From: a virus
Length of the DNA: 32,269 nucleotides
Virus record (IMG/VR): IMGVR_UViG_3300020421_000086
Coordinates: 1 to 32,269 of that record
Reading direction: 5' to 3' (one strand)
A model generated the notes under the pieces. The model saw only the letters and a program-made list of their open reading frames with translations, ran no database searches and was not told the origin of the DNA. A program made the translations under genes and the position numbers. Below are positions 10,650-31,002 of the stretch, one piece after another; position 1 is the stretch's first letter; the number at the start of each line of letters is the position of its first letter.

Positions 10650-13600
10650 TTAAGTCAAAGGTTTTATTCTAGAAACAACAGCAGAAGTCGATAAACCTGT
10701 TAATCCGTTGTCTGAATTTACGAAGAATTCCTTCGGAGTACCAGCTCCTCTATTTTGATATCCGTAAATTTGTCCCCATGTATATTTACCGTAGAAGGTA
10801 TCGATAAGATGATCAGTAGTAAATCCAACTTGAATATCACTATTGTTATTTGGTCCAGGCTGGAACGCACATGTAACTGTTACTAAACCAGAAACAGAAT
10901 CACCTACTGTAGCATATTCAACTCGGAATATACCACCAAGATTATCTCCTGATGGAATGATTCCAACTTTATTTAATGGATAATTATTAATTCCACCAAT
11001 CGCAGTTGTAATTCCAGTTAATGCGTGTCCTACAACACAAGGACTATCATAGATTATAAAGTAATCATCTTTCTGCAATTGACTGTAATTGATTCCTAAA
11101 GCATTAAGTGAAGAATACCCATATCCAAGGTTAGTATTATCATTGAAATTAGACTTCAATGTGAATTGTAACCTAGGTGGAACAGTAACACCTATACCAG
11201 GCATCCAAGTATTGATGCCAACTATAGTACCAAAATCACCCTTAGTTCTAAGTGAAAGAATATCTTCTTTCTTAGTCTTATCTGGAGAAACAATTACTGG
11301 TGGAGAACTTCCAACATCATATCCGAATCCACCGTCAGTAATGGTGACACTTGTAACTACACCAGCCGTAACAGACGCAGTTGCGGTTGCTCTATTGATT
11401 ATTGGATCAGCATAGAAAGCAGTTGTTCCAGATCCTACTGCAAGAACTCTTCTACCACGACTTAAACCAAAATTAGTAGATGCAAGATCCCTAATTGCAT
11501 TTGGATGTGATACTGGTCTAGAGTTCCAATTAATAAGATCGAATGAATAATACAAACTACCAGTAGTACTTATTCCAACATATATTCCATCTATAAACTT
11601 AAGATTCCTAAAGTCAAATGTAGCAGGATGAACTGCATTGTTATATTGTTGAGAACTCCAAGGTTGCCAGTAGTTTTTATCAGAAGAAATTCCAATAGTT
11701 CCATTGTCTCCAACTGCAATGAACTGATTACCATCGTAGATAATATCATTGAAATTGTAACCTGTATTACTTTGTTTTGGAGACCATATTGTTCCATCAT
11801 TAGATGCAATAATAGCACCACCATTACCAACTGCAATGAATTCATTCTGAGCATAAACAACAGAATTTAAATTCTGTACTGTATTTGAGAATTGACTAAA
11901 GTAAGAATCACTCGTAAGACCAACAGCAGTAAAGATAGATCCTGCAGCACCAACTGCAACCCAAGTGTTTCTTGCACCTTCCCAAATCACATCATTGAAA
12001 CTACCAGCATATTCACTAACATACGTTACTGTTAAGTTTAGAGCAGGAACCTGTCTATCCTCTTTAAGATCCATTTCTTTCCAAGAGGTTATACTGTTAC
12101 CAATACTTACTCCTCTTGCAAGACTTCCAAAGTCTCCACCAGCAACAACATAGAGATCGGTAGGAGCAGAATATGTCCAACCAACACCAACTGAATTAAA
12201 TGTAACAGTTCCACCAAATCCAATATTTCCTCTTTCCCAGAAAACACCACTCTTAGTATTAATAAATCTACTACTACTTCCAACAGCAACAATAGGTTCT
12301 TCTTCTGTAAATGCTCTCCACTCAATAGTATCAGATACACCAGTTATTACATCATCAAACTTCCAATCCTTAATGATATCTCTCTTCTTAATAGTTGAGT
12401 TTGATATTGATATTACTGGATCAGTTTGGTATAGGTAACCAGTTCCACCGTAACTAATCGTTAGTGCTGAAATACTGGATGAAGTAGAAACAATAGATGT
12501 TACAATGCCAGGTTCAATATCATAATCCTCAAAGATTTGTGCATTTCTTTCAGACTGTGTTAGTAAGTCAATATCAGAGAATACTGGGTATGCATTATTA
12601 ACCCAAATAATATTATCACTACTACCAACGTTTCTAATAATTCTAGTTGTAGGTAGAACCTTTGCCTTCAAACTTGGTCTAGCCTTAGAGATTAGAACAC
12701 CAGAAACAACCTTGTCTCTCTTCTGTTTTTCCCATGTAATAGGTCTCTCAGCAGTTTGATCAGTATTAATACCAATACTATCATATGCGAAAGTTTCTAA
12801 AACATCAGAAGCAACGATTCTCTTACCAGTTCTTGGGAACTGATCAACATCCATTATATCAAGTCTATTCTCTTTAATTTGAACAATATCACCAGCCTTA
12901 ACGGTCAATGGTGGTTCTACTGTTTCAACATCTCTATTAGATCCTCTAAAGTAGAATACAGAACATTTAGAACCTGGCTTAGGAGGTTCTGTAAAGATAA
13001 CTCTACTACCTTTAAAGATATATGAGAATTGAGGATCCTGTAGAATATCGTTAATGTAGATAAAGATATTATTAGTAACATCCATATCACTACCAGGCAA
13101 AGTCTTAAGACTTAGGATTTCAGTAGTTCCACCAGTAGTCACAGATAAAGTGAATTTAGTACGTATTCCATTAAAGTATGTGGAGATGTTATCAAACAGA
13201 ATGAACTGTCCCATATAGAAGGATGAGAACTTATCATTGTCTAATTCTGTTACTTCCAATTGGAAAGCAGTAAGAACACCAACTCTTGGATCAGTTGATA
13301 GTCCAGCAAGTGTCAATTCATCTGTAACTTTATATCCAACACCTTCTTCGGTTAAATCAAATTGACCAATACGACCACTAACATTAACACGTACATTAGC
13401 TACCGCATTTGTTCCAATTCCTGTTCCACCAGAAACATATTCTAATGGTTTGTTGAAATATGGATCTGGTTCTGTTACATCCAAGAATACTGGTTTATCA
13501 ACTCTACCACCTCTCTTAAAGTTAGCATACTCGGTACTTACACCAAGATTAACTCTAAAGCTACCACCATCTATTCTTTCTATAACATCTACTCCAGAAT

Positions 13601-16600
13601 ATCCATCACCAGTAGAAGATGTTATTCTCTTACCGTGGAACATCTGACCACCTCTATTATAGTGGTGAACACAAGTTGATATACCTACATTAACAACATA
13701 TTCATTTGCAGAAATAATCTTATCTACAAATGTTCCCCCAGAAGCATAGTCAGATCCACTTGCTGAATTATTAACAAGTCTAGGAGCAACAATAGCACCT
13801 TGAATCGTTCCACCAGTCTTATAGAATGTTGGTACAGTAGATACACCAACGTTCATTTCTACCTTAGTATTATTGATAACTCTAGTTACCTGAGTGCCAT
13901 CGAACCAAGGATCTCCTTTCTTAGGATATGCATGTGCTTGAACATTACCATCTCTAGTACAAGTAAATGTTAAAGCACCTTGTTCAAACTTAAAGTTGGT
14001 TGCATTAGTGAAACTATGACCAGCACCAACTGTCATTGTCATAACACCCACAATTTCATTATAAGTTGCAGCTGTAGCGGTGTATGGTTTATTGGTTGTT
14101 GTTCCTACATTGACTTTCAACGTATTTGGTAAAGATCCATCAACAACTAATTTTGCATTATGAGCTGGATCACTTGTACGTGGATATGCATGTTCTGTTG
14201 CATTATCATCCATTGCACAAGTGTATATTAGAGAATCGGTAGCAATTCCAATACTCCTACTGTAATCTATTCCATGTGCATCATCAGTTGTTAATTCAAC
14301 CCATCCAGTTGTTGGAATATAAGTTGCATTAGTAACATTAAATGGTCTTATTGTAGATACACCAATGTGAAGTGTAATGGAATTATCACTATGAGTCTTG
14401 ATTCCTATTTCTTGATTATCAATAGGATCTCCAGTATTAACTGCCTTACCAACATTTAATGTTACTGTATTATTTGTGGTTGCCGCAATTGCAACATTCT
14501 TTCCATTAATCCTATCACTATTTCGAGGATAAGTGTGGTTACTAGCATGACCATCCTTAGCACAAGTAAATATCAAAGAATTAGTAGCAATACCAATATT
14601 ATCTCCAGTAACAAGTCTATGATTAGCAGATGTTAAGGTTAATATTCCAGTTATTCCTGTGTAATCAGCAGCAGAAACATCTAATACAGATCCAGCAGTA
14701 CCAACATTAACAGTAATGGTATTTGTGGTTGTAGATGCAATAGAAATTACTTTTGCATTATATGGGTCAGTTGTACGTGGATACGCATGATCACTAGAGA
14801 AATTATCTTTTCCACACTTGAATGATATACCACTTGTAACTATTCCGATCTTATTCTGACTGGCAGATGCAATAACCACTGTTGCTGGATCAACAGTCAT
14901 TGTCATAACACCAGTTACACCATCATATACAGCAGTTGTAACACCAGCATATTGTAGAGTAGATACACCAACCTGAGCTGAAATTGTTGTTGCAGTTACT
15001 CCAGTTATTGTCATCTCCTTCTTATGATAAGGATCCGTTGTACGTGGATACTGATGTTGTGTATTATGACCGTCTCTTGCACAAGTAAATGTTATACCAC
15101 CCGTTGCAATTCCAATTCCGCCTGGAGTTGCAGTTGATAAGCCGTGACCAGATGGAACAGTTATCGTTAGAACACCCGTAGATGGAATGTAAGTAGCGGT
15201 AGAAATATTTGTTGTTACGTTAGTAGAAACACCAACATTAATGGTAATAGTATCTACTGTAGTTGCTGCAATTGCAACGTTAGTTAATCCATGAATAGGG
15301 TCTGTACTACGAGGATATGACTTAGGAGTAACGAATCCGTCTCTAGCACAAGTAAATGTTAAAGATTCAGTCTTAATTCCAACAGTATCAGTACCAGCAA
15401 GAAGACCATGAGCAGAGCCGAACGTTAGTACTAGATTACCTGTAGCAGGGGCATATGTTACACCTGTTGGAGTAAATTTAGTGCCTGTCCAAGAACCTTT
15501 ATGAACTGCATCCGTGGTAGCGAATGTAGACTGGAATTGGTGAGCATAATCACCACCAGTAAATGCAGCACCAGCTGATGAAGTGACGTAAGTATGTGCA
15601 AAATCACCACCAAACTCTAATGCTCCTGTCAATGCACTATGGAATTGATGAGGATAGTCACCACCAAGAACTATAGCACCTGCATTAGCACTGACAAAGG
15701 TATGAGCATATCCAGTTCTAGGATATGTGTGATTTGTTGCATGAGCATCTTGATTACAGGTAAATGTCATTCCATCTGTAGAGATGCCTAATGTTCCATT
15801 TGCCTTAGCTAATCCATCATCATCTGCATTATAGAATACATGGTCATAATCTCCACCACCATAAACAGAACCTGCACTTGCTGAAATAAATGTATGTTCA
15901 GATAAGTTGGAAGATGTACCAACATCAATAGTAATACCAGTAGCAGATGTAGAAACAACCTTAACAGCTGTATTATATGCAGGGTCAGGACCCTTCAATG
16001 CAGTTGCTCTAGGATAGAAATGATTAGTTAAATGAGCATCTTTAGCACAAGTAAATTTAAAAGCACGAGTTTTTAATTTAACACTCTGTCCTTTTCTGAT
16101 CTTATGTGATCCAATAGTTAAAGTAAGAAGTCCAGTAAATGGATCATAAGATCCTCCAGTCGGACTGTAAGGTGTAATAGTCGAAACACCAACTCTACAA
16201 CTAAAGGTATTTTCTGTTGTGTCAAAAACAGGAACCCATTTTGATGCAACTGGATCTGTAGATCTTGGGTAACTATGGGTGGAAGATTTACCATCCATAC
16301 TACAAGAGAATCTTATAGAATTTGGTGCAAACCTTACCCTATCTCCATTAGTAAATTGATGATTAGGTACAGTACATGTAATAATACCAGTGGCTCCATT
16401 ATAGTAAGCCATATTGACGGTATAATAATCTGCAGCCTTTAATTTCTCTCCAATTCTTGGTGATTCAATTACAAGTTCTCCAGTTGCAGGAGTATATGTA
16501 GAAGTTGTAATTGCATGAGTTTGTATCGTAGATACTCCAACATTTACTGTAATAGTAGTTGCAGATGTTGATCCAATACCAACACTTAAGTTTCCACCAT

Positions 16601-19600
16601 AAGGATCAGTTGGTCTAGGATAAGAATGTAATGATCTATGTTCATCTCTAGAACATGTAAATGTTAGAGATCCTGTGTTGATTCCAATAGTATCAGATGC
16701 TTTCTTGAGTCCATCAGTAAGACCAAGGAAGAATGTATGTGCAGTAGTGTTTGTAGATACTCCGACAAATACAGAGAATGTATTAACTCCTACATTATAA
16801 ATTGATAACCATTGATTACTGAAAGGATCTGATGGACGAGGATATGGTTTGGGTGCTGTGTAACCATCTTCAGCACACTTAAATGAAATTGATCCATCAA
16901 GAAATTTAACATATTCACCACTCTTAAACCCATGAGAAGCAATTGTTGGTTCTAATACACCAGTGGAAGGTGTATAGGTAGCGGTTGTAATCGTGTGTGA
17001 AGAGGTTGAAGTATAAGTATGACCAGATCCAACTGTAAGTACTAAATCACCTGTTAGAGGATCATAAGTAGAGGTTGATATAGATCTCTTAGCAAGAGTA
17101 CTAACACCAACTCTTACAGTGAAATTATTTGTTGATACAGTCGTAATTCCTATATTCTGTCCATAAACAGGATCAGTTTCTCTTGGATATGCATGTTCTG
17201 TAGCATATCCATCTTTAGCACACTTGAATATTAGAGAACCAGAATCAATTCCAATTTTCTGTACAGTCCTTAATAACCCACCAGTAGTTGCACTTTCAAA
17301 GGTATGTGCATAATTACCACCAGTAATTACTGCATCTGTTGAAACTCCTGTAAATTCATGTTGATAATCACCACCAGTGATTACTGCATCATTAGCAACA
17401 CCTTGATTGGGAATAAATGTGTGAGTAAAGTTTCCAGCAGAAGTCTGTCCTATCTGCACCGTAAACATCGTACCAGCAACACCAGTTACAGGTACAGCTT
17501 TATTGTAATATGGGTCTGTAGGTCTTGGATAGAAATGAACTGTGGTATTAGCATCTTTTAAACAAGTAAATGCTAAAGAACCTTCCTTAAACTTAACAGA
17601 GTCACCAACAATAATACCATGATTAGTGTTATCCAAAACAACTGTCATAATACCCACAGAAGGAGTATAATGAACAAACACTGGAGTCTGTTTAACTATT
17701 GTAGAAATACCAACATTAACACTAATAGTTGTTGCACCAACACCAGTTATAGGAATAGCAGTATCATATATTGGATCTGTTGTTCTTGGATATGTTTTAA
17801 TGGATTGCTTTCCATCCATTTCACACTTGAATTTTATTGAATTGGCAGCAATCTTAATACTATTTCCTTGAAGTAAATCATGATTTCCAATGGTCATCGT
17901 CATGATACCAGTGGAAGCAGTGTAACTAGCGTCTGTTACTGTACGATTAACTATTGGTGATGTTCCTACATTAATCTCAAAAGTATTAGCAGTTGTATTT
18001 CCAATTGCAACCCATTGATCACTTATTGGATCAGTTGATCTAGGATATGTGTGAGTGGATCCATATCCATCCATTGAACACTTAAATCCTATAGAATTGT
18101 CAAGAACTTTAATGGTATCACCATTAAGGAATCCATGACTAGGAACAGTTATAGTCAATATACCAACAACTGCATTATAACGAGATGTAGTGACTGAATG
18201 TACAGAAGGACCAGATAATCCATGACCATTAACTGTCAGTACTAAGTCTCCTGTACTGGGGTTATAATCAGCAGCAGTTGGAGTTGTATTACTACCACCA
18301 ACAACAGAAACACAATTGGTATTCTCGGAACCAGCAACAAATGTATGGTTATATGCACCACCAACTATGATTGTTTCATCTAAAGAACTGACATAACGGT
18401 GTGTATATGCACCACCTCTGAATATTGCGTTTGATGCAGATGTAACAAACTTATGTACAAAGTCTCCACCAGTTCTTACAGCCCCATCATTTGCTTTAAC
18501 AAATGTATGTGCATAATCACCACCCAATATTAAACCACCAGTCTTTCCACTTACAAATGTATGTACGAATTGATCTTGAGGAGGAGCATAACCAACTTGA
18601 GCTGTAACTGTATTTGTGGTTACACCAACAATAGGTACTGAAGCATTATATGTACTTGATTGTCTTCTTGGATAATAATGTGTTCCAACACCTGCATCTA
18701 TTTCGCAGGTCATTCCAATACCAGTTAATAAAACATCTTTACCAACTTTAAATCCATGAGGTGCAGCGGTAGTAACCGTCATCACACCTGTTGTATTATC
18801 ATACTCAGCGTTACTTAAATTAAGTCTAGGAGAATAGTCACAAGTAAATGCAATTCCACTAAAAACAACACAATCATCATCTTTTAGATTGTGATCCTTT
18901 TTAGTAAGGACTGTTGCCATACCAGAAACATTATCATATACAACTCTAGTAACTTCTACAGCTGGACTACTTCCAAATGTAACCGCAGTTCCTGTTGGTT
19001 CAATAAAGTCATTAGTTATTAATCCATGACCTTCTAATGGAACATAAGAACCAATACCTTGTTGGTGAGTATGTATTCCAAGAGTTGTCATTCCAGCACC
19101 AATATTCACTTGGAAATTGATGTTATTTTCAACCTTTGTTACACCAAAAACTTTTCTTGCATCACTTGGGAATGTGATATCCCCAATAGGAGTACTAAAT
19201 GCAATACCAGTTAATCTAACGGCATTATCAACTGTTAATCCATGTGCATACTGAGCTTGTATTGTAGCAATACCTGTAGATGGATTGTACCAAACATTTG
19301 CAATTGAAGTACTTATTCCAAGTTCATCACCATGAGCAGTGATTGTTGTAATTCCATCTGAAGGAGTACCATCCAGATATGCGATTGATTTTGGTGTATA
19401 ATATCCAGTTCCACCATGAGTAATGGAGAATGCCGTAATAATACCAGCTTCTGTTCTCTCTACTACACCACCAGTTACATAATTAAGTCCAAAACTGGAG
19501 AGACCAACAAAACATTTAAATGTATTGGTAGTTACTCCAAGAATATCAAATCCAACTACATTCTTACCTTCAAGAATAGAAGTATCAACACCAGATCTAA

Positions 19601-22002: not shown

Positions 22003-25000
22003 TTAATATGGAGGGTTGTCATCATGAGATGCTAATGTTGTTCCCATACGAGTAACAGTTGAGTTAAATCTATTGGTATCATAATAGAAATTATTATCAA
22101 CTTCTTTCAATGCATTTGCATATCTCGCCTTAACGAATGAAGTATCACCAATTGATTTTACCTTCATCAATTCATCATCAATTTGAATAACATCATTTCT
22201 TGCTAAGGAACTAATTCCAGCAGAAATAACAATACCCTGATCAGTAGCAGATACTTGAGATCCAACTCCAACAGTAAGTTTTTTATTCTTAATTGGAGTC
22301 TGAATAATATTATCAATCATAATAATAGCATTCAACTTGGGATTCGCATACTTAAGAACATGTGTTCCAGTACCAAATCCAGTGAAGTCCATTGGTAATG
22401 AAGTTGATAATCCAGATAATCTAAATGTCACATCATCAATCTTCTGTGCAAATACCGTTTCTGGCATTACTGTAGTACCAAGTTCAATTGGAGTCATGTA
22501 TAGATCATCAGCAGGTGTAGCACCTCCAATATATGTTCCAGCAATAGAAATTCTATTGGTAACTGCATATCCAGTTCCACCTTGAACAACATTTACACCA
22601 GTTACATCTAAATTAGCATCTCTAGTAACATCAAATGTTGCACCATTACCAGATCCATTATTGGTAGATGGTAGATTATAATATGTTGTTAAAATACCAG
22701 TTCTCGTTCCTGTAACAGCAGTAACTGGGAATGTAAGATTATTTGCTGGATTTGCACCACCTAGATGTGTTCCAGCAATACTTACAGTATCACCAACATC
22801 ATATCCAGCACCACCTTTAATCAACACAACAGCAGTGGATATTGCAACACCAGTTGTTTGATCAAAATCGAATTTAACTTGGAATCTTGCTCCAGTACCA
22901 TTTCCAGTAGTAATGCCAGGCAAACCACCATCAGGACTACCAAATCCATACCATCTATAGAGAACTATTGGATTTGAAGTAACAGCAACACCAGTTACAG
23001 GGCCTGGGATTTGAACATTATAACCATTCTCATACATGGCACTGGATCCAGTACCAGAGGTAACAACAGACATAACAATGTCTTTAGTTCCTGTTGCATG
23101 AGATGTTGTACCAATACCAATTCCATCTCCACCCTGTTTATCAAGAACTAACTCTTGACCAGATTGGAAATTATGTCCTTGAATACTAAGTGCATTATTA
23201 GTTAAATTAACAATATTAGGATCTGAAGAACCATATGATACTTTAAATACTGGTTTATTATCAGATTTTAAATCAAATACAGTGTTTCCTTGTAGAGTAC
23301 CAGTTCTATCATGACTACCATTAAATCCTTGAGAAATATCATCCAATTTAAGAACTTTATTAGTCTTATTAAGAATATAACTCTTAATTGGTCTTCCTTC
23401 TGGGAAGTATATTCTCTGAACAGATCCATCTGGTAAAGAATCATCTTCGGTTACCATACAGAAATTCTGTTTATTACCTAAGAATACTTCATTATCAATA
23501 TTGATTATAAGATCAATTTTTTGATCTGCTGGTTTAACCTTCATGTTGTTGGATTTTGCAATACCAACACTTACTAAGTTTAATGCATCTGCATCTTTCT
23601 TAGGATCACTAGTAATTCTTAAATCAGAAAATTCAAGGAATCCTGATGGGTGTAGAATAGATCTTACGGATTCTTTCCACTGATTATATGGAAGATCACT
23701 CTTAATTGAGTATGAGAACTTCTGATAGTAGAAGTTATCTGATATTCTTTGACCGAAATCATTAAGAATACCAAAATTCATATCATTCTTGGATACTTTA
23801 TTTCTAGTAACTCCAAGTTTAGTTTTGACCTTAAATTTGGTTACGTCTCTTACGTTACCAGATAACTGAGACACTTCACCAGTTAAAGTTTCCCCAGACT
23901 TAAGTACTCCTATAGTATCTCTTAATCTTAGTTGATTTAATCTTGAATTCCAACCATTTTCTGCAACATATCCTTCAAATTTAGAAGCAGTTACTCTTTC
24001 ACCAGAAACATACTTTCCATCATCAATTAGTTTCATATCAAAGACAGCCATGTCTTTGTAATTGACGATATAACCTAGAGTAAAGTCATCATCATATTGA
24101 CCAAGAGTTACAGTTGAAATTCCTGCAACATTAGCCATACTGTAAGTAATAGTGTAATTTGTAGTATTGACACCTGTTACTGGGAAGAAACCATAGTCAT
24201 AAACTGCGGAGTTAAAGTTACCTTCTCCCTGTGTTATTGAATCTGGTGTTATTCTACATCCTTCAACGAAAACAGAGTCTCCAATCGCAAATGGGAATGA
24301 AATAATAGTCGAAGCATACCCAGTTGTTACTGGTTTATTGAATTGTGGATCAAGAAGAAGTTCTACAGTTACATCAGTACCAGAATGTGTAATATTATCA
24401 ATATCATAACCATTAGAGTTCTTAGTAGTAATGATACTTAATGGTTCATTAAATTCATAAGCATTTTCAATAACTTCTACTCTATCAACAGATCCACCAA
24501 TAACATGAGCAGCAATCTTAACATTATCATTACCACGAACAGTAAGAGTTGGTGGTTGAGTATAATTCTTTCCACCTGTTGTTACACCAACCTCATCAAT
24601 CCTTGCAATTCCATTAATATCTACAATTGCAGGAACACTTAAGAATGGTAACAAAGTAGGATCAGTTGGATAATCAAATCCATCTTTTACTCTTTCAAGA
24701 TTATCAATTTCACCTATTTCTGGAGAAGATACTTTAACTATACCATCCTTACCTTGAGTACTAGCAAAACCAACAACTTTAGGTAATACTCTATATCCTT
24801 TGCCAGGGAAATTGACCTTAGTTTTAGCAATTGGTCCTCTAGCAGTATCAGAATCAGTTCTATAAGTTATTGTACTAACACCAACCCTAGAAACATACAT
24901 CTGAGGCTCTGTTGGTTTAGACTTTAGGTTGAATGTAAATTCCTTATCACTCTTTCTAAGAACACTATGTTCTGCCTTAATAACGATCTTATCGAAAGTT

Positions 25001-28000
25001 ATGTTATTTCTACCAGTAACTTCAGTATCAGATATACCATATAATTTTCTATCGTCAGAAGGAACAACAGGAGTTAAATTATAATAACTCTTTCTTGGAT
25101 AATTAGTACTCGATCTAAGACTAACAGTAGAATTGGGAGTGCCAGGAATACCACTTCTACTTACATTAAATCCAGTATCAGCATCACCACTTACATCCAA
25201 TCTATTAACAAAATCAATATCTTCAAAGAAGTCCAATCTCATATCAAGAAGAGTCTGATCAGAAACATCAAAAGTGATAATATTACCAGTAGTGAAATTA
25301 AGTGCTGGATTAATCTTAGCAAGATGATATGAACCAACTGCAACACTCGTAATATTAACTATCGTAGCATTATCTACATCTCTTCTATGCTTACATAATT
25401 TTATTGAACTAACATCTTCCCTCAAAACAAAATATGTTTCATTATCAATTAATCCATTTATAGCATTTCCACCTGAATAATATACAACTTTATCACCACT
25501 TTGGAATGATGGGTTGTTAATTGCAATTTGAGTTAAATCTGCACTAAAATCATTATTATCGAAAGATATTTTTTCAGTAGTTATTTTAGCAAGTACTGGA
25601 TCATACCTTAAAGAAACTGTTTCTGTTGCAACAGGTATTGCATCAATTGTAATTACATCACCACTAGTTAAATTGTGATTAGTTTTAGTGGTTATCAGTC
25701 CATAATATCTTTCTATTGTAGAAGTAACTTTAGGGAAATTAGTAAGAAGTGAATGTCCAAATCCAATATTGTTTGCAAGATTATAGAAATATACCGCATC
25801 AGCAGCAGTAGGGAATCCAACAGTAGATAATCCAATACGATCTCTACCAAGATTCACAGCATAAACAGTAGATCCTGTTTCTAAAATTACTGTTCCTATA
25901 CCAGTTGTTGCTCCAACAGATGTTTTAGTCCAAACAAGTCCAGTACCTGCATATCCAACATCATAAGTCAATTCCTGACCTGTTGTATAAGTGTGTCCAT
26001 CAGGCATATAGATTGATCTTTCAGGAACAAATCTATTCTCTATTGAATAATTTCCACTAGTATTCAATCCAGTAGAGATTATATCATAATGAGTTCCAGT
26101 AGATCCAACACCAACAGAATTTTTTGGATCAAAATATGTGTAATAATTCTTTTGTGATAGGTATGTAATATCCTCATTACCCACTTCAAAGGAGAACTTA
26201 GTGGGTTTTAAAATAATATTAGCAGTTCCAGCTCTATGTGTTGCAGCCATACCGACATAGAACTCTCTTTTAACAAGAAGTCTAGAGTATTGATCATCAA
26301 TACCCATAACCCTCATTGATTCAGTTCCTATACCAATAATATCATCTTGAGCAAATCCAAAGGTATCAGTTACACTAATATAAGTCGTAACCCCAGTAGT
26401 ACCAACATTTGCAAGATCAGTAGCCAATCCAACAGACCTAGTAATAACTTTTACCTTTTGAAGTCCATTAAACGGTGTGAATTGTGATGTTGAGATTCCA
26501 GAAAGGTATATTGTTTCACCATTAGCAATTTCATGTGGAACTGTTGTTATACCTACAATTCTTCCTTCTTCCAATAAAAGAGTTGTTTCTGGGAAAGTAG
26601 ATACTCCAATTTGTACAGTATTAACTTCAGAACCCAATACTTCAGAAACAACAATATTTGTTCCTGTACCATCTGTACCAACATTATCTAATGTAAGACT
26701 ATCATTGACTTTATAATCAGTTCCTCTAGCAAAAATAGTTACTGAGGATATACCAGAAGTTTTGGTCTTTGTTACATTAAATCTTTGTTTGTAATTGTCA
26801 CTTATTTTGTCAATAAGATCATAATCAGAGTTTCCGTATGAGAGATAATATGGACCAACATTTCTTGTCAAGTCCTCTTCTATTACAGGATTGTCCTGAT
26901 TAAAAAATGTTATGAAGTTATCTTCAATTGGAAGATCCTTGAATTTTGTACCCATGATGTATGGATACTTAGGTTCAGCAACACCACTAGAATCAACATC
27001 AATACTATAGAAATATGCATATGTACCATCTGGATATTGTGGAGTTATACAGTACCTTCCACCATATTCATCCATATCTCCAGAATTATCATACTTAAAG
27101 TCATCAATAAAGTAGCCCAAAGCATACCCAGGCGGTCTCAGACCGACTTTAGATGTAGTATCGACTATGTAACTAGTTGTTAGTCTTATAACACTACCAC
27201 CAGTAGGAGACTCAAAACCATAAGGACCATATATTGGATTACCATCATAAGCATACCCCAATATAGGAGAGTGTTGTGGATTTGCACTTTGTTCTAAATT
27301 GCCAGAATCAATATTATCACCAAGTTGATATCTCAACTTCTTAGGTGGATACATTGATACTGTTTGGAGTTGAAACTCTGGGTTATTACTTGGTTTGGTT
27401 ATAAGTGAATCTTCATCACTAATAATATCCTCATTCTTAACTACCTGATTAATCTTCCATTCATGCACATCACCAATAAACTTAGCACCAAGACCTCTAT
27501 TCCTTAAAGTTAATGTAGTCTCACTTATTGCATATCCAACTCCACCATCAAGTATTTGAACACCCGTTATTTTATTATTAGTAATAACTGGTTGAATATC
27601 AGCAAAACTACCTGTAGGACTGGTTACAATTATATCAGAATCTTGTCTAAATCCTAAACCAGAAGCAAGTATTTGAACATCTACAATAGAACCACCAATA
27701 ATAATTGGTTTTAACAAAGCTGGAGTAGTAACTGTAGATATACCAATATCTGGTCTTCTATGGAAATCTAAAATGTTAGTACAACCATATCCAGTACCAC
27801 CTTCTTCCAAATAAACACTTTGAATAGTTCCAAGTACCTTTGGACTTATTGTAGGTTGAATAATCGTAGTAGATCCTATCGCAGAAAGAGTTTCAACAGC
27901 AACTACAATAGGTGGATATGCAATGGTATGTTTTCCACCTGTACCTGTTCCACGGAGAGTTGCATTTCTCTTTTTATCATAATTTTCGGGAGTTTTTTGA

Positions 28001-31000
28001 GTACCAATACCAACATCATATAATTTAAATCTATTACTATCTAATTTACCAACAGCATAATTGGTAGTTGTTGATAGTCCATTAATAATAGTTCCAGTAG
28101 CACTATATTGTACTATTTCTCCACTCTCAAACTTATGATTAGGTGCAAAAATATAATCATCAGAGGTACTTATACCAGACTGCACATCACCATTAACAGG
28201 TCTTCCAGGCACAATGACCTTTTTGTTTGAATAACCAGATCCAGGCTCTTTTACATATATTTTAGTAATAGTGTTTTTTGCTTGTAATGTAGTTAATCTA
28301 TGGAAACCAAAACTAACAGATCCCAAATTAACTGTATTAATTCCAGAAATAGCTTCTTCTGGAGTTGTATGTAATTTAATTATTAAATCACTAACTGGAA
28401 AAGCATAATAAGTTGAACCACTTACAATATTACCAACTGGAGTATTTCCTCTTGCATCATATACAACAGCTTCTCCTAGTTCAAAATTATGTCTAGTTTC
28501 AAAATCAATTGTATCTGATGTAGTATTAACTGATGAACCGTCTGCTTTAAAGTTATTTTGAATTTTTCCTCTAACAAAGTTAGATTCCAAAACAGCACCA
28601 GTACCATTACCACCAGTAACAGATATCTTTGGTTTTTCTTGATATCCTATTCCAGGCGTTACTAGTTTGACCTCTCTAAATGATCCCGTTACGTTAGCAT
28701 GAGCAAAAGCACCAGAACCCTGATTATCATTAATGATTAATGGAGGTCCATTAAGAACATCATAATCTTTACCAGAATCAGTTACTTCAATATTAGAAAT
28801 ATCTCCATAGAATATCTGTTCATCAAGAACAGTAGGTGGAAATAATTCAACACCATTACCCAATAGTGCTATAGGTCTATTATCAATATCTCTTTTGTTA
28901 GGATCATCAAAATAATTCTTTTCTTTTACATATGGTAATTTACGTAAAATCTTCTGGTTTTTAAGTGTTTTATTCTCCCAACCAGACTTGTATATGTACT
29001 GTCCAACAGTACTTGTTTTTAAAGCAATATACTTATTTGCAAATACATCAGCACCACTATATGAAAGTCTAAACTCGGTCTGGTTTACACTAGTAACAAA
29101 GTAAATACCAGTTTGAATTCCACTTAAAGTAGTATTATCCCAATATATCTTATCTCCAGTTACATAATTGTGTTTAAAAGCAGTATTGGATTGAGGGTCA
29201 ATAGATTTTATCGTATATGTATATCCACCACCCAATATTGGAGTTCCACTTTCTGTTGCTTCTACAGTATCCGATTTAACCCAAACTTTGTTATCTGTAG
29301 CAAAGATTGGATAGTTTGGTAATCCAGAAGAAGCAACATAATTATATTTCTCATCTCTATCCAAATAAGTATTCTGAACACCTACTGGGAAATCATCAAC
29401 ACCAGCAAAATAATTAGAGTTATGAGAAGCTTTTATAACCTTCTTCTGAATTGATGTTGGAGAAGTAGGAGGAGTTGAAGATACCTGAACTACAACAGTA
29501 TTTGAGAATTTCTTTTGTACATTTGTTGCTCCATACTCAATATCCTTAACAATAACAGATATAGAATTTCCAAACTGGTCTGATAGAGTTAATTCTTCAT
29601 CAACGTAAAAAACGATAGCATCAAATAGTACAATTCTATAGGTATTGATGTTTACCTGACTAAATGATGAGATCGAATGAGTAGAGGGAATATTATAGAT
29701 CCAGTTATTGAATTTTGGATCATCTCCCAAATCTTGACCAAAGGAGTTCAACTTCATTGAATCTCCAACCATCATATTTGATGTGTCGGTAGTATCAACG
29801 GTATCAATAACATTTACAAGTCTAAATTGCAATAAAGCAGTTTGACCTATACCAGAATATGCATATGCTAACTTATTTTGAAATATATCTGCAGCGAAAT
29901 TTAAATCAGTAGATATACCAGTTACACCAAGAAATTGATTAACTGTTTTATCTGTGTATGATACAGTAAGGAAGTTGGCATCTTTTGTTGGTTTAATTAA
30001 AAGATTACCAGTTTTACCAAATCCAACTGTAGAATCAACAACTAGAGAAGTCGAATCTTCTTTAGTTTCTTCAAGAGTTTTAGTTTTGCCTGGAATCTGG
30101 AAGGATCCATCAAAAGAAGTAGAGTCTAAAGATAGTTCATAAAAATCTTTAGTCCCAACAGGTCTATATTCTACGTTGTAAATTGAAGCACTTGCAGTTC
30201 CAATGCCAGGTATATCTTGATATAAGAAATTACCAACTGCATTAAGTGGCTCCCCTCCAAAAAGATTCTCTACGAGGAGGTGTTTAGTTTGGAAATATAC
30301 ATTAGATGATGCAGAAATAGTCTGATCAATTGGTTTAATCAGTTCAATCTCTTCACCATAAAGTAATTTAAAGAGAATCTGATAGGATGCATCAGTTCCC
30401 TTCGACATGTAAAAGTCTTTTGCCCTTGTTAGAACATTACTAATTGATGTTCCAGTAGTAAAGGTTCTATTTTCAAAGCCAGGAAGGAACTCAGTCTTAA
30501 ACTTAGTAAAGAATGTTTGTAGGAATAAGTTACTTAAATTTTGTACTGGCGTAGTAGCTACATGTTTATCAGCGTCTGTCTCTTCAAAACTTAAAAATTC
30601 CGATGCGTCTTCTCTTGATATCTGATCAATACCACTGAATCCTCTAGCACAACCTAAAAATTGTGTCGAAGTCTTTGAGGTATATGTAATAATCTCATTA
30701 TCAATCTTTAAAAGACCATATGTAGTTGGCCAACCACTAGTAGAAGCTACATTTATTGTAGTTTCACCAGCAAGAATATCAGCCGTCAAAACCGTTGCAG
30801 GCACTAGGGTTTCATTGTTAAATGCACTGATCTTTCTATAATCAACAAGATTGCTAGCTAAATCACCAACACCACCTTGATGTTCCTGTGATTGATAATA
30901 GACGTTAAGGAACTCACTAAAGAGGGGTGACTCCTGATTCAGAAATTCAGGAATCTGCGACTCAATAATATGAGAGATTTTTACCTTTTTAATATCCGTC

Positions 31001-31002
31001 AT
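22003..31002 (-). CDS. Giant YHYH-domain baseplate protein in the gp7 position (2999 aa)
   Basis: The N-terminal 250 residues carry a conserved phage block (SPLFSEFLNVYYQSQEHQGG, then A-K-D-F-Y-M-S-K-G-T-D-A-S-Y and L-L-Y-G-E-E-I-E-L-I-K-P). Residues about 1215-1330 form a YHYH domain. About residues 2408-2465 hold FYYQKFSYSIKSDLPYNQWK, then R-S-I-L-H-P-S-G-F-L-E-F, a block known from marine T4-like structural proteins. Between these are many G-G-x-G-Y turns and repeated phage modules (four of the I-D-x-E-I-I-x-Y type, four of the F-x-x-G-[ED]-x-V-x-Y type). No signal peptide or membrane segment is seen. The ATG directly abuts the gp6 stop (TAAATG). Position after gp6 makes it the counterpart of T4 gp7 (1032 aa), the wedge organiser, but I see no direct sequence match to T4 gp7, so no symbol is given. 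Confidence 0.85.
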   Translation of the reverse strand: MTDIKKVKISHIIESQIPEFLNQESPLFSEFLNVYYQSQEHQGGVGDLASNLVDYRKISAFNNETLVPATVLTADILAGETTINVASTSGWPTTYGLLKIDNEIITYTSKTSTQFLGCARGFSGIDQISREDASEFLSFEETDADKHVATTPVQNLSNLFLQTFFTKFKTEFLPGFENRTFTTGTSISNVLTRAKDFYMSKGTDASYQILFKLLYGEEIELIKPIDQTISASSNVYFQTKHLLVENLFGGEPLNAVGNFLYQDIPGIGTASASIYNVEYRPVGTKDFYELSLDSTSFDGSFQIPGKTKTLEETKEDSTSLVVDSTVGFGKTGNLLIKPTKDANFLTVSYTDKTVNQFLGVTGISTDLNFAADIFQNKLAYAYSGIGQTALLQFRLVNVIDTVDTTDTSNMMVGDSMKLNSFGQDLGDDPKFNNWIYNIPSTHSISSFSQVNINTYRIVLFDAIVFYVDEELTLSDQFGNSISVIVKDIEYGATNVQKKFSNTVVVQVSSTPPTSPTSIQKKVIKASHNSNYFAGVDDFPVGVQNTYLDRDEKYNYVASSGLPNYPIFATDNKVWVKSDTVEATESGTPILGGGYTYTIKSIDPQSNTAFKHNYVTGDKIYWDNTTLSGIQTGIYFVTSVNQTEFRLSYSGADVFANKYIALKTSTVGQYIYKSGWENKTLKNQKILRKLPYVKEKNYFDDPNKRDIDNRPIALLGNGVELFPPTVLDEQIFYGDISNIEVTDSGKDYDVLNGPPLIINDNQGSGAFAHANVTGSFREVKLVTPGIGYQEKPKISVTGGNGTGAVLESNFVRGKIQNNFKADGSSVNTTSDTIDFETRHNFELGEAVVYDARGNTPVGNIVSGSTYYAFPVSDLIIKLHTTPEEAISGINTVNLGSVSFGFHRLTTLQAKNTITKIYVKEPGSGYSNKKVIVPGRPVNGDVQSGISTSDDYIFAPNHKFESGEIVQYSATGTIINGLSTTTNYAVGKLDSNRFKLYDVGIGTQKTPENYDKKRNATLRGTGTGGKHTIAYPPIVVAVETLSAIGSTTIIQPTISPKVLGTIQSVYLEEGGTGYGCTNILDFHRRPDIGISTVTTPALLKPIIIGGSIVDVQILASGLGFRQDSDIIVTSPTGSFADIQPVITNNKITGVQILDGGVGYAISETTLTLRNRGLGAKFIGDVHEWKINQVVKNEDIISDEDSLITKPSNNPEFQLQTVSMYPPKKLRYQLGDNIDSGNLEQSANPQHSPILGYAYDGNPIYGPYGFESPTGGSVIRLTTSYIVDTTSKVGLRPPGYALGYFIDDFKYDNSGDMDEYGGRYCITPQYPDGTYAYFYSIDVDSSGVAEPKYPYIMGTKFKDLPIEDNFITFFNQDNPVIEEDLTRNVGPYYLSYGNSDYDLIDKISDNYKQRFNVTKTKTSGISSVTIFARGTDYKVNDSLTLDNVGTDGTGTNIVVSEVLGSEVNTVQIGVSTFPETTLLLEEGRIVGITTVPHEIANGETIYLSGISTSQFTPFNGLQKVKVITRSVGLATDLANVGTTGVTTYISVTDTFGFAQDDIIGIGTESMRVMGIDDQYSRLLVKREFYVGMAATHRAGTANIILKPTKFSFEVGNEDITYLSQKNYYTYFDPKNSVGVGSTGTHYDIISTGLNTSGNYSIENRFVPERSIYMPDGHTYTTGQELTYDVGYAGTGLVWTKTSVGATTGIGTVILETGSTVYAVNLGRDRIGLSTVGFPTAADAVYFYNLANNIGFGHSLLTNFPKVTSTIERYYGLITTKTNHNLTSGDVITIDAIPVATETVSLRYDPVLAKITTEKISFDNNDFSADLTQIAINNPSFQSGDKVVYYSGGNAINGLIDNETYFVLREDVSSIKLCKHRRDVDNATIVNITSVAVGSYHLAKINPALNFTTGNIITFDVSDQTLLDMRLDFFEDIDFVNRLDVSGDADTGFNVSRSGIPGTPNSTVSLRSSTNYPRKSYYNLTPVVPSDDRKLYGISDTEVTGRNNITFDKIVIKAEHSVLRKSDKEFTFNLKSKPTEPQMYVSRVGVSTITYRTDSDTARGPIAKTKVNFPGKGYRVLPKVVGFASTQGKDGIVKVSSPEIGEIDNLERVKDGFDYPTDPTLLPFLSVPAIVDINGIARIDEVGVTTGGKNYTQPPTLTVRGNDNVKIAAHVIGGSVDRVEVIENAYEFNEPLSIITTKNSNGYDIDNITHSGTDVTVELLLDPQFNKPVTTGYASTIISFPFAIGDSVFVEGCRITPDSITQGEGNFNSAVYDYGFFPVTGVNTTNYTITYSMANVAGISTVTLGQYDDDFTLGYIVNYKDMAVFDMKLIDDGKYVSGERVTASKFEGYVAENGWNSRLNQLRLRDTIGVLKSGETLTGEVSQLSGNVRDVTKFKVKTKLGVTRNKVSKNDMNFGILNDFGQRISDNFYYQKFSYSIKSDLPYNQWKESVRSILHPSGFLEFSDLRITSDPKKDADALNLVSVGIAKSNNMKVKPADQKIDLIINIDNEVFLGNKQNFCMVTEDDSLPDGSVQRIYFPEGRPIKSYILNKTNKVLKLDDISQGFNGSHDRTGTLQGNTVFDLKSDNKPVFKVSYGSSDPNIVNLTNNALSIQGHNFQSGQELVLDKQGGDGIGIGTTSHATGTKDIVMSVVTSGTGSSAMYENGYNVQIPGPVTGVAVTSNPIVLYRWYGFGSPDGGLPGITTGNGTGARFQVKFDFDQTTGVAISTAVVLIKGGAGYDVGDTVSIAGTHLGGANPANNLTFPVTAVTGTRTGILTTYYNLPSTNNGSGNGATFDVTRDANLDVTGVNVVQGGTGYAVTNRISIAGTYIGGATPADDLYMTPIELGTTVMPETVFAQKIDDVTFRLSGLSTSLPMDFTGFGTGTHVLKYANPKLNAIIMIDNIIQTPIKNKKLTVGVGSQVSATDQGIVISAGISSLARNDVIQIDDELMKVKSIGDTSFVKARYANALKEVDNNFYYDTNRFNSTVTRMGTTLASHDDNPPY
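27000..27360 (-). other. YHYH domain within the 2999-aa protein
   Basis: The domain has the signature L-G-Y-A-Y-D-G-N-P-I-Y-G-P-Y-G, a later L-G-Y-F-I-D-D-F-K-Y-D, then D-E-Y-G-G-R-Y-C-I-T-P-Q-Y-P-D-G-T-Y-A-Y-F. These match the YHYH family as I remember it (DGxPIYGPYG and the NGR-x-[CV]-x-TPE-YP-x-GTYAYF ending). The family is widespread in bacteria and marine phages and its function is not established. The segment is encoded in frame with no break. Confidence 0.82.

Follow-up and report, generated by a model that had tools for sequence, protein, structure and literature searches.

A viral stretch of 32,269 nucleotides (IMG/VR record IMGVR_UViG_3300020421_000086, positions 1 to 32,269; this whole stretch is called the window) encodes a giant protein, P0001, in which a 14-residue motif occurs sixteen times. 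We confirm the motifs and place them in a repeat that is widespread among the tail proteins of cyanophages and probably mostly structural. The repeat unit is a β-barrel module of ~80 amino acids, and the 14-mer is its best-conserved part, a β-hairpin. The motifs are probably the structural hairpin of a tandem barrel domain in a gp7-type cyanophage tail protein, with the Cys packed and not acting as a ligand. The initial annotation had proposed that Cys, Asp, and His load metal; we find this unlikely, and the three conserved residues are most likely structural.

The motif and its module

The P0001 translation contains exactly 16 matches to C..D.....[HK].YP[RK], which bears out the number and the coordinates of the gapless motifs in the initial annotation. 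The residue ahead of YP[RK] is His in 13 motifs and Lys in three (M3, M6, and M11), and YPK occurs in M16 only. No match appeared in 2,000 residue shuffles of P0001 or in the other large proteins of the window. The modules are diverged, with a mean pairwise identity of 37% and a maximum of 53% in P0001. Two other descriptions stand only in part. The motif length is constant in P0001, where all 16 are gapless, but in the wider family it is close to fixed without being strictly so: 653 of 703 cases have a Cys-to-YP spacing of 10. The placement is regular in a loose sense, with Cys-to-Cys distances of 74-136 residues, but 209 after M1.

Alignment of the motif surroundings gives the module pattern Y...TG.LT.T...HG...GD.I.I...SL.FTC..DG....H.YPR.TDP.....V.I..T..NT.TVNVG, and the module period in P0001 is mostly ~75-115 residues. 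A module at residues ~547-613 of the P0001 protein family has the barrel pattern without any Cys. An iterated profile search recovered 919 unique modules at 165 loci; alignment-based scans of the collections were unsuccessful, as there is no sufficiently conserved stretch. Literature searches returned no description of the motif.

Cys is present in 100% of the His-type modules (555 of 778, with Asp in 96%) and in 100% of the Lys-type modules (145 of 778, ~20%), the latter also having Asp in 90%, Tyr in 100%, and Arg in 99%. The 78 modules with neither His nor Lys have Cys in 97% and Asp in 36%. Of the 778 modules, 708 have exactly one Cys, and the background of Cys in P0001 is only 0.29%. Relatives were gathered with a DNA pattern, and conservation was repeated on records outside that pattern to check the effect of this selection. 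Among 58 modules from phage records not selected by motif, Pro is found in 100%, Cys in 98%, Tyr in 90%, Arg in 88%, the first Asp in 84%, the second Asp in 88%, His in 53%, and Lys in 25%.

Within the motif, the positions change at very different rates. Comparison of P0001 with its 95%-identical relative L002 shows a single change, K to H, over the 96 codons of the six skeleton positions. There are 16 changes over 128 codons at the remaining eight motif positions, and 54 over 1,072 codons elsewhere in the modules. In this closest pair the eight positions have a rate 2.7 times that of the rest of the module (P=0.002; P=0.02 with a second relative, L003), by a test that was chosen after seeing the data. 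This pattern would fit a hairpin that is rigid apart from an exposed tip open to change.

AlphaFold2 predicts that a module can fold alone. The model of the complete M3 module, built with 116 aligned sequences, has a predicted local distance difference test (pLDDT) score of 86.8 and a predicted template modeling (pTM) score of 0.70, with six strands of three or more residues and a three-residue helix right after the Cys. The idea that each module is a small folding unit is retained on this basis, without the metal or cross-linking that had been attached to it. A model of three tandem modules, M2-M4, has a pLDDT of 85.5 and a pTM of 0.49; the inter-module geometry is therefore not fixed by the prediction. 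In the predicted secondary structure a strand ends at the Cys, followed by a short helix and a return strand to YP. Covariation across 697 modules pairs alignment columns 34-47 and 36-45, and this fixes the antiparallel register of the hairpin. D40 and T44 are also linked, as are Y48 and D53, and loss of D40 accompanies loss of H/K46.

Roles considered for the conserved residues

We propose that the L-x-F-x-C strand points Leu, Phe, and Cys at the module core; positions 33, 35, and 37 hold hydrophobic residues or Cys, and this alternation suggests that they face inward. Asp at +3 would cap the turn and pair with Thr or Ser at +7, His or Lys at +9 would pair with the Asp side of the turn, and Tyr-Pro-Arg-x-x-Asp would close the return strand. 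The Cys would be a packed core residue, neither a metal nor a disulfide ligand, and the exposed tip of the hairpin could vary freely. Tandem barrels may form a long modular section of the giant baseplate protein, and this section varies in length as modules are gained and lost distally in the array. Its purpose may be that of a spacer on which parts of the tail or fibre are presented.

Several points weigh against the packed Cys. The structural reading accounts only in part for the strict single Cys per module (column 37). A packed Cys can usually be replaced by Ala, Ser, Val, or Thr, and packing does not normally demand the near-100% Cys seen over hundreds of diverged modules. With so low a Cys background, an unrecognised thiol role is possible. 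In addition, the couplings calculated for Cys-37 rest on only 9 modules that lack it.

A metal-loaded spike, with a metal ion bound by Cys, Asp, and His within each module or between chains, is very unlikely. The almost invariant Cys and the highly conserved Asp would suit it, and the hairpin register sets C, D, and H on neighbouring positions, leaving their proximity unrefuted. However, Lys replaces His in about a fifth of the modules while Cys, Asp, Tyr, and Arg are kept, and the Lys of M6 is His in both L002 and L003 (the latter 88% identical). The Cys also persists where Asp and His are lost; it is independent of them, and a ligand triad is therefore unlikely. The motif modules contain no HxH, and P0001 as a whole has one HxH, at residue 622 and outside the motif modules, and no CxxC. 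The analogy drawn at first with HxH-type metal sites of T4 gp37 fails on this point. The metal sites of T4 gp37 and gp12 use His clusters on trimeric fibres; these fibre tips are likewise phage tail proteins, but the motif His of P0001 is replaceable by Lys.

The initial annotation also considered cross-linking of neighbours, for which we find no support. Here the single Cys of each module would cross-link to a neighbouring chain or module in oxygenated seawater after release and stiffen the stalk. An extracellular virion and the one Cys per module against a low background are in keeping with this, but the L-x-F-x-C alternation would direct the Cys toward the module core, and the irregular module spacing (74-209 residues) disfavours regular bonds between modules. 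We consider it very unlikely.

The modules may instead be weak glycan-binding barrels, the array being a polyvalent adhesin for cyanobacterial surface sugars with the hairpin tip as the sugar site, a reading that we find doubtful. The closest fold to one module in a Foldseek search is the phi92 endosialidase (probability 0.96, TM 0.53, root-mean-square deviation 3.3), a weak match with an E of 0.31; UBA1 and UBA6 chains are also among the weak matches. No single-module match reaches E 1e-3, and the three-module model has no fold match in the PDB at E below 1e-3. The Pfam families most often touched by modules are End_beta_barrel and E1_FCCH, both below cut-off. End_beta_barrel (PF12195) is matched by 8 of 116 modules with a best E of 0.0023, below its 35-bit cut-off. 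E1_FCCH (PF16190) scores 25.7 bits against a cut-off of 29.5 at residues 672-695 and is weakly matched by 7 of 116 modules. The latter, the FCCH domain of ubiquitin-activating enzyme, has an HG..GD.V segment in common with the modules, and the match spans positions 4-27 of 70.

End_beta_barrel is the barrel of the K1F and phi92 endosialidases, of similar size and with a TGG and HGLxVGDxV core in common with the modules. The module profile aligns inside the annotated barrels of both enzymes; unlike the cyanophage modules, these barrels have no Cys and no YPR hairpin. Read by eye, the sequences suggest that the cyanophage hairpin is an addition at the K1F loop that holds S460 and S468, but automatic aligners disagree over the second half of the barrel. 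According to a mutational scan of K1F (PMC12632334), polysialic acid has three sites on this enzyme, one of which is the barrel, and within it S460, S468, and G504 discriminate between hosts. The fast change of the non-skeleton motif positions, again a post hoc result, would also suit a sugar site. Nevertheless, we found no significant match to any carbohydrate-binding family, and the near-identical skeleton in all modules of all phages is unlike a host-range determinant. A more specific version is rather improbable: the array would be a polyvalent glycan-binding section with up to about 20 copies, in one cyanophage tail protein, of a barrel related to the sialic-acid-binding one of the endosialidase, its sugar-binding loop replaced by a hairpin that is near-invariant apart from a changeable tip. 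Two other profile matches were rejected as chance. An iota-carbonic anhydrase match (E 7e-5 to 1e-4) is the sum of three weak domains, each with an independent E above 2, and the other match is to an antibody (YYCARD).

Distribution and copy number

The modules are found in 295 INPHARED records by tblastn with three modules and in 368 with a more distant module pair. All of these are Synechococcus or Prochlorococcus phages, cyanophages, or single-cell records named "Marine virus". The DNA pattern occurs in at least 120 IMG/VR stretches and in 29 stretches of bacterial or archaeal assemblies; a plasmid search for modules gave no match. One of the assembly stretches is a 188-kb contig (NZ_RMVE01000006.1) of Nonlabens xiamenensis 1Q3 that carries T4 gp23 together with the modules. 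A non-cyanobacterial host was considered and rejected for this contig, as its modules are 97% identical to those of cyanophage P-TIM40 and gp23 is present. It is probably a P-TIM40-like phage contamination of the assembly, and the module-bearing contigs of other bacterial and archaeal metagenome-assembled genomes are probably virus contigs. Pattern matches at L016 and L024 lie in ordinary cellular contigs with no module and are due to chance.

The modules occur in gp7-like proteins, in giant structural proteins, and in proteins that carry a short or long tail fibre annotation. Exact motifs number 18 in the relative L004 and 17 in L005. For M1-M9 and M16 the L005 orthologues are clear, and the segment between M9 and M16 is largely turned over.

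The module is a very common building block of giant tail proteins in marine T4-like cyanophages, although no Pfam family is matched above its cut-off and none of the matches to solved structures is significant. Its definition gives a domain boundary for expression and structure solution, and makes it possible to follow how modules are gained and lost in Prochlorococcus and Synechococcus phages. The analysis also makes unlikely a metal-spike hypothesis that would otherwise draw bench work.

The baseplate operon and related phages

The coordinates of P0001, the motifs, and the modeled modules are given in Table 1.

Table 1. Positions in the window of P0001, its sixteen motifs, and the modules used for structure prediction
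Feature	Position	Strand	Basis
P0001, giant baseplate/tail structural protein (predicted), 3428 amino acids	10650..20936	-	open reading frame, translation, PHROG matches, S-SSM7 synteny
Stretch with all 16 motifs, P0001 residues 744-2339	13920..18707	-	regular expression
Motif M1 CEIDAGVGTHYYPR	18666..18707	-	regular expression
Motif M2 CSMDGYGSTHTYPR	18039..18080	-	regular expression
Motif M3 CEMDGKQSIKTYPR, Lys type	17784..17825	-	regular expression
Motif M4 CLKDANTTVHFYPR	17523..17564	-	regular expression
Motif M5 CAKDGYATEHAYPR	17181..17222	-	regular expression
Motif M6 CAEDGYTAPKPYPR, Lys type; His in relatives L002 and L003	16836..16877	-	regular expression
Motif M7 CSRDEHRSLHSYPR	16614..16655	-	regular expression
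Motif M8 CSMDGKSSTHSYPR	16263..16304	-	regular expression
Motif M9 CAKDAHLTNHFYPR	16008..16049	-	regular expression
Motif M10 CNQDAHATNHTYPR, module truncated after YPR	15717..15758	-	regular expression
Motif M11 CARDGFVTPKSYPR, Lys type	15309..15350	-	regular expression
Motif M12 CARDGHNTQHQYPR	15042..15083	-	regular expression
Motif M13 CGKDNFSSDHAYPR	14775..14816	-	regular expression
Motif M14 CAKDGHASNHTYPR	14523..14564	-	regular expression
Motif M15 CAMDDNATEHAYPR	14178..14219	-	regular expression
Motif M16 CTRDGNVQAHAYPK, only YPK	13920..13961	-	regular expression
Representative complete module M3, 83 amino acids, single-module prediction	17691..17939	-	AlphaFold2
Three tandem modules M2-M4, three-module prediction	17415..18212	-	AlphaFold2

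Six large proteins are encoded on the minus strand of the window. P0001 is flanked by gp6 (PF21387) and gp8 (PF09215) in a gp25-gp6-gp7-gp8 baseplate operon, and its other neighbours are a 340 amino acid protein with a T4 gp9/10 N-terminus and a 2,503 amino acid DUF4815 protein. The operon also includes a 2,999 amino acid protein (window 22003-31002) with a Pfam YHYH domain (E 6e-20). Between some P0001 modules there are tandem 18-residue repeats of the form GG[DN][YF]xHx[FY]xxAxxxAI (e.g., residues 792, 810, 828, 846, and 864), located at window 15515-18580 (P0001 residues 786-1808) and including exact repeats of the type GGDYAHTFVSANAGAIVL. The repeat period is 18 in 47 of 49 tandem pairs from 18 open reading frames. 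The C-terminal third of P0001, after the modules (window 10650-13900), reads like Asp-box/BNR-type repeats (SNDGTIWSP..., FIAVGDNGTIG).

A search of the PDB with the whole P0001 sequence gave no match. PHROGs 5342, 701, 1276, 18802, and 2885 match its module region with E 9e-109 to 3e-165; these clusters are labelled tail fiber, virion structural protein, or baseplate wedge subunit, and the labels name neither the module nor the hairpin. At its own N-terminus, P0001 matches that of the baseplate wedge subunit of ACG-2014d and S-MbCM6 (T4-GC_107 in S-MbCM6) over ~80-120 residues.

Judged from its gene order, the window is a baseplate operon of a T4-like marine cyanophage (Kyanoviridae), syntenic with that of Synechococcus phage S-SSM7. 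In S-SSM7 the order also runs gp25, gp6, gp7, a 340 amino acid protein, the protein described here, and gp8. The P0001 orthologue is SSSM7_103, annotated as the gp7 baseplate wedge initiator, with 55-57% identity over most of the protein. Because of this synteny and the gp7 annotation, a baseplate location for P0001 appears better supported than a fibre; the extracellular phage fibre of the initial annotation is not established. S-SSM7 has the same module family, with 12 exact motifs compared with the 16 of P0001. In P-SSM2, the counterparts of P0001 and of the upstream YHYH protein form a single gp7 of 5195 amino acids, which contains 7 exact motifs.

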